A DNA stretch of 64,000 nucleotides from Rhodohalobacter sulfatireducens (lineage in GTDB: Bacteria > Bacteroidota > Rhodothermia > Balneolales > Balneolaceae), in assembly GCF_022012475.1 (NCBI RefSeq), contig NZ_JAKLWS010000005.1, positions 1-64,000 on the forward strand, given 5' to 3'. The notes below the pieces were generated by a model. The model did not search any database. It had not been told where the DNA came from and saw only the letters and a program-made list of their open reading frames with translations. The stretch's first letter is position 1. Every line of letters begins with the position of its first letter. This document shows positions 25,756-32,825 of the stretch, piece by piece. The translations under genes and the position numbers were made by a program.

Positions 25756-26829
25756 ATGAATCAAGCTGACAGTTTAACAAACCAGGAGATTGTAGCAAGT
25801 GTAAATGATCCAATACATCTGCTTATTATTTTTTCAATCATGATCATTGCCGGAGTTCTTGGCGGTGGTGCAGCTTATATGATCGAAAAATATACTTCCT
25901 CAACGATGAATAACACTCTTAAACCGGAGTTCTATATTTTAATTGGTGTTTGTGCATCACTGCTTGTGCCCTTATTTATGACAACCATATCAAGTGATCT
26001 GCTCGAAAACAGCAGGAAAAATCATCTTGATTATTTTGTGTTTGCGGGATTTTGTCTTATCGCAGCAATTTCTGCTCATCGTTTTATTACATCTATTTCT
26101 GAAAAAATACTGAAGCAGTTTGAAGACACAACCCAAAAAATTGAAACGGCCGGTATGAAACTCCAATCTAATGAAAATCGCCAGGAATTAGATAAAGAGA
26201 TAAATACCCTGAGAGACAATTTAGAACATGAACAATTCTTTTACTTTACTAAAGAGAGGGCGGATTCGATTCTTATGAAAATTCTTTCTCTCAGCAATGA
26301 AGGAGAAAAAACACACTACTTTTCAGAATTAATTAAACATTATTTTTCGGCATCAAAATTTGACCAAATCAATGCCATTGTTGATGAGTATTCCAATAAA
26401 ATCAATTTAAATGAGCTTACCTGGGCAAACGTAGCGATTGCAAACATGAATCTCTACAGCAGAACCCAGAATAAAGACTACAGGAAAAAGTCGGTGTATG
26501 CTCTGCAAAAATCGATTGAATTGAATGAGTTCTACGGTGAACCGTATGCAATTCATATCTATTTGAATTTAATTGATTTTGCTTCTGTAGAAACCGATGA
26601 GGAAAGAGAGGCAATCTCTAATACTATTGGTGGTCTGATTGGAGAAATTAAGAAGAAGGGAGTTGAAACAGCCTATGATGCTTACACATATTTCCTCGCA
26701 AATGATGGTAACACATTCAAAGTTTATAATGAGATTCTCCGGAATCGATTCGCTGAAGATTTCAAGAATTTAGAAGAGTTAGCGATAGGATCTAACCTGG
26801 GGAAGCAGAATAATCCAAGTTTGGCATAA
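25756..26829 (+). CDS. Three-helix membrane protein with cytoplasmic helical domain (YEATS-associated-type N-terminus)
   Basis: A 357-residue protein. Three transmembrane helices lie in the first about 120 residues (LLIIFSIMIIAGVLGGGAAYMI, PEFYILIGVCASLLVPLFM, HLDYFVFAGFCLIAAISAHRF). The segment CASLLVPLFMTTISSDLL resembles the three-helix module attached to bacterial YEATS proteins, though no YEATS domain is visible. A coiled-coil-like stretch (about 115-160) and a TPR-like helical domain (about 170-350) follow. No enzyme motifs. It ends at a bidirectional terminator shared with nrdJ. Function unknown; signalling or scaffolding is a guess. Confidence 0.7.
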   Translation: MNQADSLTNQEIVASVNDPIHLLIIFSIMIIAGVLGGGAAYMIEKYTSSTMNNTLKPEFYILIGVCASLLVPLFMTTISSDLLENSRKNHLDYFVFAGFCLIAAISAHRFITSISEKILKQFEDTTQKIETAGMKLQSNENRQELDKEINTLRDNLEHEQFFYFTKERADSILMKILSLSNEGEKTHYFSELIKHYFSASKFDQINAIVDEYSNKINLNELTWANVAIANMNLYSRTQNKDYRKKSVYALQKSIELNEFYGEPYAIHIYLNLIDFASVETDEEREAISNTIGGLIGEIKKKGVETAYDAYTYFLANDGNTFKVYNEILRNRFAEDFKNLEELAIGSNLGKQNNPSLA

Positions 26830-26868
26830 AAAAACCTGCCCTCCGAGTCATCGGAACGGCAGGTTTTT
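26827..26868. terminator. Bidirectional terminator between the membrane-protein gene and nrdJ
   Basis: Stem AAAACCTGCC (26831-26840) with GGCAGGTTTT (26858-26867), inner stem TCCGA/TCGGA, A-run before and T-run after, so it can serve both converging transcripts. Confidence 0.9.
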
Positions 26869-26927
26869 GAATCGTTTAAGTCAACACTCCATCTCCGCCA
26901 AATTTGAGCCGGAAACGAAGTATACTT

Positions 26928-29900
26928 TTAGGAGCACCCTGTTGTAGATCCACAAGTCATGCATTTCAAACATGTACCGTTGCGAATCATTGTCATGCTC
27001 CCGCATTCGGAGCAGGAATCGCCTGTATATCCAAGTTGTTTCGCTCTGTCGTAATCAGATTCAGCATCATCCTTTTGATACTGCTCTTTTTGAACGACAT
27101 TTGCTCCTTGGTTTACAGTTTTAGGTTTATTTTTGGTTTGAGACTTTTTTGCCACCTCATCGGCGAGGTCCTCCTCTTCGGATGGCCGAAGTTTTCGTTT
27201 GAGGATATCTTCGGGAGCCACGTGCGCCAGGTCTTCCCGGCCCAAATAGGTTACGGCTAGCTCTCTGAATATATAATCGATCACCGAGGTCGTCATTTTT
27301 ATATGAGGACTACCGTTAACCATGCCACTCGGCTCAAATTTCGTAAAGGTAAATGCATCCACGAATTCTTCGAGTGGAACACCATGTTGTAAACCAAGTG
27401 AAATTGCGATGGCAAAGCAGTTTGTGAGACTTCTGAATGCAGCACCTTCGCGATGCATGTCAATAAAGATCTCACCGAGCTGACCGTTATCGTATTCACC
27501 GGTTCTCAGATAGACACTTTGTCCGCCTATTTTCACTTTCTGTGTATAACCGCTTCTGCGGAACGGTAATCGCTGACGTCGAGCCACATATTTGTGAATA
27601 ATCTTCTCTGCGGTTTGAACCACTTTGTCTTGCGCTGCTGCGGTTTCTTCATCTTCATCTTCGAGTTCTTCAATTACGTCACTCATAGAGTTCAATGGTT
27701 GACTCAACTTCGAACCATCTCGATAAAGAGCGTTAGCCTTCAACATTTTCTCCCAGGATTGCATGTATGCATCCTTGAAGTCCTCAACCGTAGCTTCATT
27801 CGGCAGATTAATGGTCTTGGAAATAGCACCTGAAATGAACGGTTGTGCAGCTGCCATCATATTGATATGACCTTCCGCGGAAATAAATCGCTTCCCGATT
27901 CTTCCGCACTTGTTAGCACAGTCGAAAACAGGATAATGTTTTTCTTCAAGATGAGGTGCACCCTCGATCGTCATTGTACCACAGACATAATCATTGGCGT
28001 CCTGGATCTGATCCTTCGAGAATCCAAGGAAACGTAGCATGTCGAAGTTATGATCGGACAATTGATCTTCTGAAAGGCCGAGTACATCTTTACAGAAATC
28101 CTCACCCAGCGTCCAGTGGTTAAATGCAAATTTGATGTCGAAACTACCGGGCAGAGCCTCTTCTACAGCTTCCAGTTTTTCATCTGTAAAACCTTTCTCT
28201 TTTAACGATTCAGGATTGATATGAGGGCACCCTTCAAGCGTTCCGGAGCCTTTGGCATATCTAATGATTTCATCAATCTCTTTCTCTTTGTACCCGAGAT
28301 TTTTAAGAGCTAACGGCACACTCTGGTTGATGATCTTAAAGTAACCGCCTCCGGCCAGTTTCTTGAATTTAACCAATGCAAAATCAGGTTCAATTCCGGT
28401 TGTATCACAGTCCATCACCAGTCCAATTGTTCCGGTTGGCGCGATAACCGTGACCTGGGCATTTCGGTATCCATGCTCTTCACCCATCTCTACCGCTTCA
28501 TCGGCATTTTTTTGAGCAGCATTCAAAAGGTATGCCGGGCAGTGATCTTCACTGATTCCCATGGGCTTAATCGTCAACCCTTCATATTCCTCGTTATCCG
28601 CATCGTACGCGGCCCGTTTGTGATTTCGAAGAACCCGAAGCATATGTTCCTTATTCCGCTCATATCCTTCAAATGCACCAAGTTCACTGGCAAGCTCAGC
28701 ACTTGTAGCATAGGCTTTCATGTGCATCATACTCGTGATAGCACCGGCAATGGCACATCCCTTTTCACTATCGTACGGAACACCCTGTACCATAAGGGCC
28801 GCACCAATATTGGCAAAGCCAAGGCCCAATGTGCGGTAAATGTAAGATAAGTCTGCAATTTCTTTGGATGGGAACTGCGCCATCAACACAGAAATTTCAA
28901 GAACAACGGTCCAAAGTCTTGACGCTTGTTGAATTGATTCCACATCAAACTCGCTGCAATCCTCATCCTTGAAATACTTCATCAGATTCAGTGATGCAAG
29001 ATTACATGCCGTGTTATCAAGGAACATATATTCCGAGCAGGGATTACTCGCATTAATCGGTCCATCTTCAGGGCACGTATGCCATTCGTTTATAGTATCG
29101 TGATATTGAGCTCCCGGGTCGGCACAAGACCACGCCGCATAACTAATTTGTTCCCAGAGATCACGAGCCTGCATGGTTTTCAAAGGCTCAGGTTCTCTGC
29201 CCTCTTTCTTAGCCCTCTTCCGCTCAACCCTGCCGTAAAGATTCCACTCTTTGTTATCTACAACGGCTTTCATGAAACTGTTTGGTACCCGAACAGAGTT
29301 ATTAGAATTTTGTCCGCTTACTGTGGCATACGCCTCTGAATTCCAGTCAGTATCATACGTATCAAATTCAATATCGGTAAATCCCTGTGCTGCTAACTGA
29401 ATGACCCGTTCAATATAATTTAATGGAACCTGGTCTCTCTTTGCCTTTTTAATTGCTTCACCTAGATCTTCATTCTTGATAGGATCACGACTCACAGCTC
29501 CGTTGTATGTCTTTCCATCAATTTCTACAGGTTCATTGCAAAGCCTTATAATTTTTTTGAGATGCTTCTCGGTAATTTTCGAACCGGTAACGATTGACGC
29601 TACTTTCTGCTCTTCGCGAACCTTCCAGTTGATATACTCTTCAATGTCGGGGTGATCTAAATCGAGCGTAACCATTTTGGCAGCTCTGCGCGTAGTACCG
29701 CCGGATTTGATTGCACCGGCTGCACGATCACCGATCTTCAGGAAACTCATCAGGCCGGAGGACTTTCCACCACCGCTCAGTGGTTCATTTTCTCCTCGAA
29801 TTTTTGAAAAATTACTGCCGGTACCTGACCCATATTTAAAAAGGCGAGCTTCCCGAACCCACAGATCCATTATACCGCCTTCATTTACAAGGTCATCATC

Positions 29901-30515
29901 AATACTTTGGATGAAGCAAGCATGGGGCTGTGGATGTGAATAGGCGTCTTCTGATTTTTTAAGCTCACCTGTTTTGCCATCTACATAATAGTGACCTTGT
30001 GCGGGGCCATTAATCCCGTATGCCCAATGTAAACCCGTGTTGAACCACTGCGGACTGTTTGGCGCCGCCATTTGATTGGCAAGCATATACCGAAGTTCAT
30101 CGTAAAAGATTTTTGCATCTTCTTCTGAATCGAAGTAATCGTGTTTCCATCCCCAATAGGTCCAGCATCCTGCCAGCCGATGAAATACCTGCTTACTGTC
30201 AATTTCATGACTGTAGCGATCATCTTCATCAATTTTTTCGAGAGCTTTCTCGTCAGGTACAGAACGTTGTAACCACGATGGTACTCCTTTCTCTTTAACC
30301 TTTTTTACTTTTGCCGGAACACCTGCTTTACGAAAATATTTTTGAGCGATGATATCCGTCGAGACTTGCGACCAGGAGGATGGCACTTCCACGTCTTCCA
30401 TCTGAAAAATAAGCGAGCCGTCAGGATTCTTAATTTCTGATTTTCTCTTCTCGAACTTGATATCTTCGTACGGCGAACTCCATTCTTCGTTGGTATAAAA
30501 ACGCTTAAATTTCAT
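26928..30515 (-). CDS. nrdJ: Adenosylcobalamin-dependent (class II) ribonucleotide reductase
   Basis: A 1195-residue enzyme that makes deoxyribonucleotides using vitamin B12. Recognisable parts: [15 protein letters not shown] near residue 155, [25 protein letters not shown] (substrate-site region), the active-site stretch [44 protein letters not shown], and a C-terminal zinc-ribbon-like redox tail with CSEC, CLKCMTC and final GCS that recharges the active-site disulfide. Length matches the long NrdJ form. The minus-strand ribosome site GAGGAG (30525-30530) is well placed. The upstream gap contains DnaA boxes. No nrdAB genes or cobalamin riboswitch are visible here. Confidence 0.96.
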
Positions 30516-30524
30516 AAATATATT

Positions 30525-30530
30525 CTCCTC
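30525..30530 (-). promoter_or_regulatory. Ribosome binding site of nrdJ
   Basis: GAGGAG on the minus strand, 9 bases before the ATG at 30515. Worth noting because most genes in this window lack a Shine-Dalgarno sequence. Confidence 0.7.
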
Positions 30531-30657
30531 TTTTACTATCTATTAATGTGTGAGAGCGCTAAAAAAAATTTCTGCTGGTGATTTGGCTTTTTAGCGAGAA
30601 AATGTATCAAGCAATATATTTGTGAGAGCAAGACACAGCAAGAAAAAAATCAATTAC

Positions 30658-31080
30658 TTTTCCACAATTTCCGGAAGTTATCCACATTTAGAACTGCATT
30701 AAAAAAATTAGCTGAATTTGAAAAATTAAAGCCAGGCAAATTATCCTATTTTCGTGATCATATAGATAGAAATTAAGTTTTACAGAACTATAGATTATCA
30801 AGATGTGAATAATTTCATGAGTTTATTTGCCTAATTAGCCGGTTTTTGTACTTATCAACAAGTAAAAAAGTTATCAACATTTTAAATTTTGGGTGAAAAA
30901 ATTCCATTAATTTTTTTTATAAATTATTTTATTTTGAATTTAATTTATATTCTTATAAATACTTTTAAAGGAATATTTTTACATTTTTATGATCATTAAT
31001 CTTATATTATAATATGAATTTCTTCATTAATTTTTATGACCATACTTCTGCATTTCTATATCGTATTAAATGATTGATAT
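30658..31080. promoter_or_regulatory. DnaA-box cluster with adjoining AT-rich stretch (candidate oriC or DnaA-controlled nrdJ upstream region)
   Basis: DnaA-box-like 9-mers: TTTTCCACA (30658-30666), TTATCCACA (30678-30686, perfect), TTATTCACA on the minus strand (30804-30812, matches TTATNCACA), TTATCAACA (30852-30860) and TTATCAACA (30871-30879). Directly to the right, 30901-31020 contains only about 12 G or C in 120 bases, like a DNA unwinding element. The whole 734-base gap 30516-31249 has no intact gene. No dnaA, dnaN or gidA gene is in the window. Confidence 0.55.
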
Positions 31081-31249
31081 TTGATTATAAAAAATCACAA
31101 AAGAAAGAATATCAATCTATTTAGAAGAAGCTACAATCATTTTAGGTGATTTATCAAGCTAGCTGTGAATCAGACAAATGTTACTTTCATGCGATTCATG
31201 TGATTAGAATCAAACCGTTTTTTTAATCTCTGAATTTTATTCCTTTATC

Positions 31250-32029
31250 ATGGATTTAATTACAAGATATTTGGCCATAATAATGGTCTTCATATTTACT
31301 AATAATCAGAGTGGAATTGCTCAGTCAATTGAACTACAACCGGATAGTTTTGTTCGTTATGTGATGGACCCTGCAACCTTCCAAGAAGATGCTAATTCGA
31401 ACTCGATTTGGAAACTGGCGCCTTCGGCAGAAAAGATCCTACTATTTACAGATCGGGCACAAAAGATAATGGTGAACCAATTATTAAAGCCAGCTCGAAT
31501 CAATCCGTTTCAAGTGTAAAAAATGAAATTTCTGCAAATGCTGAGGACTTTCCGATTATTGATGGGAATGGATGATCGAATCTGTGCTCGAATCAGGAGA
31601 TGTAACAAAAAAGATGGTGATGACTATGCTGCACGTTTTTATATCACGTTTGAATATCCTGTTTTAATTTTTGTATTGGAGATAAATCAAGTACAGGTTT
31701 TATCAAACATTCACATCTTTTGACGTCTCCACTCGCGCCTTGAATTATATATGGGCAAACAAATCAGATGCTGGATCGATTCATCCGATTCCATATACAG
31801 ATTGGGTTCAAGTTCTGTCAGTTCAATTTGGAAATGAGAAGGCGTGTACCTCGCAATCTGAAAAGAGAAATATCCCGGAGGATTATAGAGCTGCATTGGA
31901 GAACAACCACCTGCCATTACAGGTATACAGATTATGACAGACTCAGATAATACGGGGGAATATGCAAGAGCTGGATATGAAAAAATAATCTTGAGAAAAG
32001 AGTCTGACTCAGACAGCCTGAATGATTAG
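31250..32029 (+). pseudogene. Decayed DUF3047 family secreted protein
   Basis: The first 89 residues keep a signal peptide (IIMVFIFTNNQSGIAQ). After that the DUF3047 pattern continues only by switching frame several times: WEWMIESVLESGDV near 31560-31610, KKDGDDYAARFYITF near 31605-31650, ALNYIWANKSDAGSIHPIPYTDWV and GNEKACTSQSEKRNIPEDYRAAL in the frame 31737-31937, and finally IMTDSDNTGEYARAGYEKIIL up to the TAG at 32027-32029. At least four frame changes are needed, with in-frame stops between, so the gene is dead. DUF3047 function is unknown. Confidence 0.8.
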
Positions 32030-32078
32030 TGTAAATACCGTAAATTTTGGCAATACATATCATCAAAAAAATAAAAAA

Positions 32079-32825
32079 ATGCCAAATTTAGAGTATTCAT
32101 ACTCAGTACCATTTAAAGTGCGCTCCTACGAGGTTGATCACAATAAGGAGGCATCTATCTCTGCAATTTGCAACTATTTTCAAGAGGCTGCCGGTTTACA
32201 TGCCAGGAAGTTAGAATTTGATATCTCCGACCTTCAAAAGCAGGGACTAACATGGATCTTGTACAAGCTGCAAGTGAAGGTTCACGTATACCCTGAGCGA
32301 TGGGAGACGGTACATGTTAAAACATGGCCCTCTACCGGAGATGGATTGCGAGCGTATCGAGATTATGAGCTTTACAATGAAAATGATGAGCTTTTGGCCG
32401 TTGGGTTAAGTCAGTGGATGGTAGTAGACGTCCGAAAAAAACGGCCGGTAAAAATGCCGGATGAGCTTATGAGCAGTCGCTTTGAAACTGATAGCCATGT
32501 TTTAGAGCTTCACAAAAGTAATCTAAAAAAACTTGACAGTGATAAAGCAACTTTTATCACCACAGCCGGGCTGAACGACCTGGATATGAACAAACACGTT
32601 AATAATGTACGGTATATTGATTGGGTGACAGGCTACAATCATTCAGAAAAGGCCCAAAAAAAATGCAATGAGATAATCATCCAGTTCTCTGCCGAAACAA
32701 AAGCAGGCGATAAGATTTATCTTTCAAATCAAACAAACCCGAATCTGAATGATGAAATTAACTCTACTCTATTCAAAAATAATGATAAGCAGATCATTGC
32801 AAATGCAAGAACGAGTTGGTCGTAA
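32079..32825 (+). CDS. Acyl-ACP thioesterase (FatA/FatB-like double hotdog)
   Basis: A 248-residue thioesterase that releases fatty acids from acyl carrier protein. The first hotdog half starts YSYSVPFKVRSYEVDHNKEASISAICNYFQEAAG and includes WILYKLQVKVHVYPERW and GLRAYRDYEL; the second contains the typical LNDLDMNKHVNNVRYIDW. I start at ATG 32079 (MPNLEYSYSVPF), matching the usual N-terminus; an upstream in-frame ATG at 32022 overlaps the dead DUF3047 tail and would add 19 unrelated residues. The gene converges on small minus-strand membrane genes with 3 bases between stop codons. Proteins of this type are common in Bacteroidota. Confidence 0.88.
   Translation: MPNLEYSYSVPFKVRSYEVDHNKEASISAICNYFQEAAGLHARKLEFDISDLQKQGLTWILYKLQVKVHVYPERWETVHVKTWPSTGDGLRAYRDYELYNENDELLAVGLSQWMVVDVRKKRPVKMPDELMSSRFETDSHVLELHKSNLKKLDSDKATFITTAGLNDLDMNKHVNNVRYIDWVTGYNHSEKAQKKCNEIIIQFSAETKAGDKIYLSNQTNPNLNDEINSTLFKNNDKQIIANARTSWS

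Follow-up and report, generated by a model that had tools for sequence, protein, structure and literature searches.

The intergenic region upstream of nrdJ in Rhodohalobacter sulfatireducens is very probably a control region for DnaA binding, which would couple the dNTP supply to the initiation cycle. DnaA control of nrdJ had been proposed in the initial annotation as the second choice after a replication origin, and comparative genomics now supports it strongly: the box pair is present in 36/36 family genomes, lies at nrdJ in 48/48 computed positions, and stands out as islands in the alignment. The window, i.e. the whole stretch of DNA analysed (64,000 nucleotides), covers the first 64 kb of contig C94 (208 kb) in a draft genome of 5.1 Mb. 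Its relevant features are:

26928..30515, minus strand: nrdJ, adenosylcobalamin-dependent (class II) ribonucleotide reductase, 1195 aa (NCBIfam and Pfam)
30613..30641, minus strand: probable nrdJ promoter, -35 TTGCTG at 30641-30636, 17-bp spacer, -10 TATATT at 30618-30613
30658-30666, plus strand: TTTTCCACA, a DnaA box of the promoter-proximal module, unchanged in 16/16 aligned genomes of the genus
30678-30686, plus strand: TTATCCACA, a DnaA box of the promoter-proximal module, unchanged in 16/16 aligned genomes of the genus
30804-30812, minus strand: TTATTCACA, an inverted DnaA box of the distal module, retained in 14/16 aligned genomes of the genus if one mismatch is allowed
30852-30860, plus strand: TTATCAACA, a DnaA box of the distal module, present in 14/16 aligned genomes of the genus
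30871-30879, plus strand: TTATCAACA, a DnaA box of the distal module at 19-20 bp from the preceding one, present in 15/16 aligned genomes of the genus
30901-31020, no strand: AT-rich block with 10% GC, beyond the distal module as seen from nrdJ

nrdJ is the sole ribonucleotide reductase (RNR) found in the genome. Specifically, PF02867 matches at nrdJ only, and neither the class I small subunit (PF00268) nor the class III enzyme (PF13597) was found in the window's genome. The protein scores 2034 bits against NCBIfam NF005736 (cut-off 1737) and 584 bits against TIGR02504 (cut-off 400). It carries PF08471 and PF02867 together with TSCPD; an ATP-cone is not among its Pfam domains. NrdR is the usual repressor of RNR genes. 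It was not found in 5/5 genomes of the order that were tested, and the same model matches 9/14 control genomes. A cobalamin riboswitch was rejected, since none of the Rfam matches in 26500-32500 was above chance.

The five DnaA boxes span 222 bp (30658-30879), each with at most one mismatch to the E. coli consensus. When 30541-31249 was shuffled 1000 times with dinucleotides preserved, and boxes with at most one mismatch were counted, the mean was 0.22 boxes and the maximum 3; five boxes were seen in 0/1000 shuffles. The initial annotation had described five sites in 222 bases, which holds, and called two of them perfect, which does not: strictly, there is one exact E. coli consensus and four boxes with one mismatch. 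Its 120 bases of about 10 percent GC are indeed found at 30901-31020 (10% GC), the lowest-GC 120 bp of the window, and its 734-base gap agrees with the coordinates, from the nrdJ start at 30515 to the next ATG at 31250. The ORF beginning there is shorter than 90 aa; one that reaches this length does not begin until 32022. Between the array and the thioesterase gene, 31250-32020 holds one short ORF and none of 90 aa; this stretch may be a decayed gene.

Transcription of nrdJ is expected to start near 30606. The TTGCTG-N17-TATATT promoter is a nearly invariant island in the 16-species same-genus alignment; a scan with the sigma-70 consensus did not list it and gave no more predictions than in shuffles. 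The proximal pair starts 16 bp upstream of the -35 element, with its boxes centred at about -56 and -76 relative to the expected start. These two boxes are on the same strand and separated by an 11-bp gap, i.e. 20 bp start to start, and would thus lie on about the same face of the helix. The distal module is located about 130-220 bp further upstream than the proximal one, at about -200 to -270 from the expected start.

The nrdJ upstream regions were compared in 29 genomes, and the 16 from the same genus were aligned. In the orientation of nrdJ, where the proximal pair is read as its complement, TTATCCACA-N11-TTTTCCACA is unchanged in 16/16 same-genus genomes, and the distal boxes are retained in 15, 14 and 14 of 16 (counted by eye with one mismatch allowed). 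Invariant or near-invariant columns among these 16 species correspond to the boxes and the promoter, the DNA between them being saturated with changes. It counts against the DnaA reading that the two boxes of the distal pair in the window's genome are TTATCAACA, which is off consensus. Most relatives show exact TTATCCACA at these positions.

We searched for the exact 29-bp pair in 40 relatives and, separately, in 296 genomes drawn from the phylum. Every sampled genome of the family has it (36/36), 35 with one copy and G299 with three. Outside the family, none of the 6 genomes from other families of the order and none of the 32 from the rest of the class has the pair, and it occurs in 4 of 222 from elsewhere in the phylum; three of these four lack an NrdJ match, and G224 has the pair and nrdJ on different contigs. 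At the level of the genus, 18/25 genomes contain the pair (G024 in two copies). The seven without it comprise three with no nrdJ match, three in which only the 3' part of nrdJ was matched, and G004, where nrdJ is complete but divergent (76%) and the exact pair is absent. In all genomes with a computed position (48/48) the pair is on the nrdJ strand, 127-348 bp upstream of the start, with a median of 141. Relatives from the order but outside the family have boxes upstream of nrdJ too, in other geometries, with one exception. In G026, a relative from the order, all boxes near the promoter are degenerate. Further loci named Balneola or Balneolaceae have three or four boxes in 500 bp in 4/4 cases, with about 0.05 expected. 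Boxes upstream of nrdJ were found in 0/11 Ignavibacteria/Melioribacteraceae, whose NrdJ is 63-67% identical. Strong constraint covers only part of the array, because G019 has lost the distal module and conservation of the exact pair stops at the family boundary. In 48 mostly alphaproteobacterial nrdJ upstream regions (L183-L240) we counted 0.21 DnaA-like boxes each versus 0.01 by shuffling, a weak indication of possible DnaA control of nrdJ in Alphaproteobacteria as well.

Distances between the distal and proximal modules group at 160-164, 172-177 and 185 bp, i.e. about 11 bp apart. Helical phasing of the module distance gives p about 0.04, with the distances read by eye and relatedness ignored, and we take this grouping as a hint of a DNA loop. 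The AT-rich block is missing from several relatives in which the boxes persist, G003 and G023 among them, and is therefore probably incidental. Two roles considered for it were rejected on the same grounds, namely an unwinding element and an equivalent of the cis AT-rich element that Sun et al. reportedly described for E. coli nrd in 1994.

The arrangement suggests how DnaA could act on nrdJ. DnaA bound to the proximal pair would contact or help RNA polymerase, and the distal module would stabilise or tune the proximal complex, perhaps via a DNA loop. As ATP-DnaA rises and spreads, nrdJ output would change, and dNTP synthesis by the sole RNR would thereby follow the initiation cycle. A conserved box site alone is compatible with either activation or repression. 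Since the proximal boxes are upstream of the core promoter and not over it, we infer that DnaA activates nrdJ rather than represses it. DnaA is a plausible main controller, because NrdR was not found in the five genomes tested and the window's genome yielded neither a class I small subunit nor a class III enzyme. More tentatively, one may imagine a family apparently without NrdR, with an RNR lacking the ATP-cone switch, in which DnaA is the main dNTP controller through a looped two-module array and a family-specific 20-bp double box at the promoter of a B12-dependent RNR; we regard this full version as possible rather than probable.

Several boxes in a fixed arrangement outside oriC are also what a DnaA-titrating or reactivating locus of the datA or DARS type would present if it lay beside nrdJ by chance. 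This is unlikely, given that the strongest constraint is on the promoter-adjacent pair, found at nrdJ in 48/48 computed genomes, and that boxes recur at nrdJ across the order in other geometries, whereas titration would not require the boxes to remain at a particular promoter. Titration could still be a secondary effect of the array.

Control by DnaA rather than by another protein is also favoured by the remaining box clusters of the genome. At least three boxes in 300 bp were seen only at nrdJ, dnaA and dtd/purM in about 1.85 Mb sampled from three genomes. The cluster directly upstream of dnaA (L010:3265-3531, on C92) has three exact boxes plus TTTTCCACA, is partly kept across the order and probably serves dnaA self-regulation. 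As DnaA is identified at nrdJ by sequence motif alone, a different transcription factor might use the TTATCCACA-like sites there, but we consider this very unlikely: the same two words occur in the same genome at dnaA, as TTTTCCACA-AG-TTATCCACA with a 2-bp gap versus the 11-bp gap at nrdJ, and again at the dtd/purM cluster, a standard-type DnaA is encoded (TIGR00362), and NrdR was not found.

The main reading of the initial annotation, a chromosomal oriC in which DnaA fills the boxes and melts the AT-rich block, can draw on the long intergenic gap in which clustered boxes adjoin a block of 10% GC, but it is hardly credible because the skew sign is unchanged across the site here and at the orthologous site of another genome of the genus (G012), the skew flips near a different conserved cluster (dtd/purM), relatives can lack the AT-rich block and still have the boxes, and the boxes track nrdJ where nrdJ sits at unrelated places on large contigs. 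Both outcomes that the initial annotation had named as refuting an oriC were observed, a skew minimum at another place and a good DnaA-box cluster near that minimum, in the dtd/purM intergenic region. Nor does composition support the impression that genes lean away from the locus on both sides: GC skew has the same negative sign to the left and to the right of it and along most of the 208-kb contig, with no sign change at 30.7 kb. G012 is assembled in large contigs and its NrdJ is 90% identical; there the skew is positive on both sides of the nrdJ site (+0.05, +0.08), mainly negative on both sides of dnaA, and changes sign, negative to positive, at about 895-902 kb of contig C1. A DnaA-box cluster at C1 894,862-895,210, the counterpart of the dtd/purM cluster, adjoins this flip.

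In the window's genome (G000), where skew was computed from sampled stretches, it turns positive near the dtd/purM cluster on contig C50 and the cumulative minimum is near 354 kb. The cluster itself lies at C50:362,079-362,426 (L155:7079-7426), unlinked to dnaA. Three to six boxes are present in the dtd/purM region in 9/9 genomes checked across the order, a set that excludes G005 and G023. One complete genome was sampled (G033, 4.29 Mb). Its skew is mainly negative up to about 250-500 kb and mainly positive beyond, a rough placement of the minimum as the skew is weak; dnaA maps to 0.7 kb, purM to 270 kb and nrdJ to 4.26 Mb. In both members of the genus the skew minimum is a few kb towards ffh from the dtd/purM box cluster, and the origin is thus placed to about 10 kb. 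The dtd/purM region is the best oriC candidate and probably the true origin region. An oriC at dnaA is not favoured, as the G012 skew is mainly negative on both sides of dnaA despite the upstream box cluster. The initial annotation appears to have been right that the origin can be apart from dnaA, because dnaA is not at the skew flip either.

Some smaller sites were seen in passing. An inverted DnaA-like pair (TTATCCACA, TTATCAACA) is located just upstream of ffh at L155:496-517 (C50:355496-355517) and at C1:901827-901848 in G012. Its position is thus shared by two species; it is separated from the dtd/purM cluster by about 6.6 kb and lies closer to the skew minimum. By eye, a transposase-like gene is inserted upstream of ffh near the probable origin (L154:18670-20000 and L155:1-295; C50 about 353.7-355.3 kb) and is not at the G012 site. 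Two further inverted pairs with exact TTATCCACA are at L023:6939-6961 (C127:96938-96960) and L021:7521-7576 (C82:15520-15575).

Whether DnaA couples initiation and precursor supply is a long-standing question. With one RNR found and no NrdR found, such coupling can be tested here in a simpler system, and the same DnaA-RNR logic appears on a B12-dependent RNR in a phylum distant from E. coli. The dtd/purM cluster in turn offers a concrete oriC candidate for a lineage where dnaA does not mark the origin. In the accessible part of the literature, searched without most subscription journals, we found no report of DnaA control of nrdJ or of RNR in this phylum. DnaA control of RNR is known in E. coli; a B12-dependent enzyme under such control, with this geometry, would appear to be new.

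In E. coli, NrdR, Fis and other regulators act on the class Ia RNR besides DnaA. Among known systems, datA and DARS are DnaA-bound places of E. coli (PMC11317965), and DnaA is proposed as a regulator of RNR expression at nrdAB of Caulobacter crescentus (PMC8203912). The nrdJ array is similar to datA and DARS in being a box cluster outside oriC, and differs in being tied to one promoter throughout the family. The Caulobacter case concerns a class I enzyme in Alphaproteobacteria, with control that is proposed and no family-wide array shown. At E. coli nrdD and purH, ChIP-seq found DnaA bound upstream of the genes (PMC11317965): at nrdJ, too, predicted DnaA sites are upstream of a nucleotide-synthesis gene, the difference being the 11-bp spacing. 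E. coli DnaA prefers double boxes 2-3 bp apart (PMC11317965), and the nrdJ geometry departs from this preference, with a gap of 11 bp throughout the family; a 2-bp gap is found at dnaA of the window's genome. The model is E. coli nrdAB, where DnaA-ADP or a low level of DnaA-ATP activates and a high level of DnaA-ATP represses (PMC8203912) and the double DnaA box is gTTATCCACAaagTTATGCACTt with a 3-bp gap (PMC11317965). Unlike this class Ia system, nrdJ encodes a B12-dependent class II enzyme, is the sole RNR found, and occurs in Balneolaceae, where NrdR was not detected. Its double box has a gap of 11 bp (20 bp start to start) where that of nrdAB has 3 bp, and a further module lies distal to it. 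Common to both are an RNR gene, clustered boxes beside its promoter and a same-strand double box.
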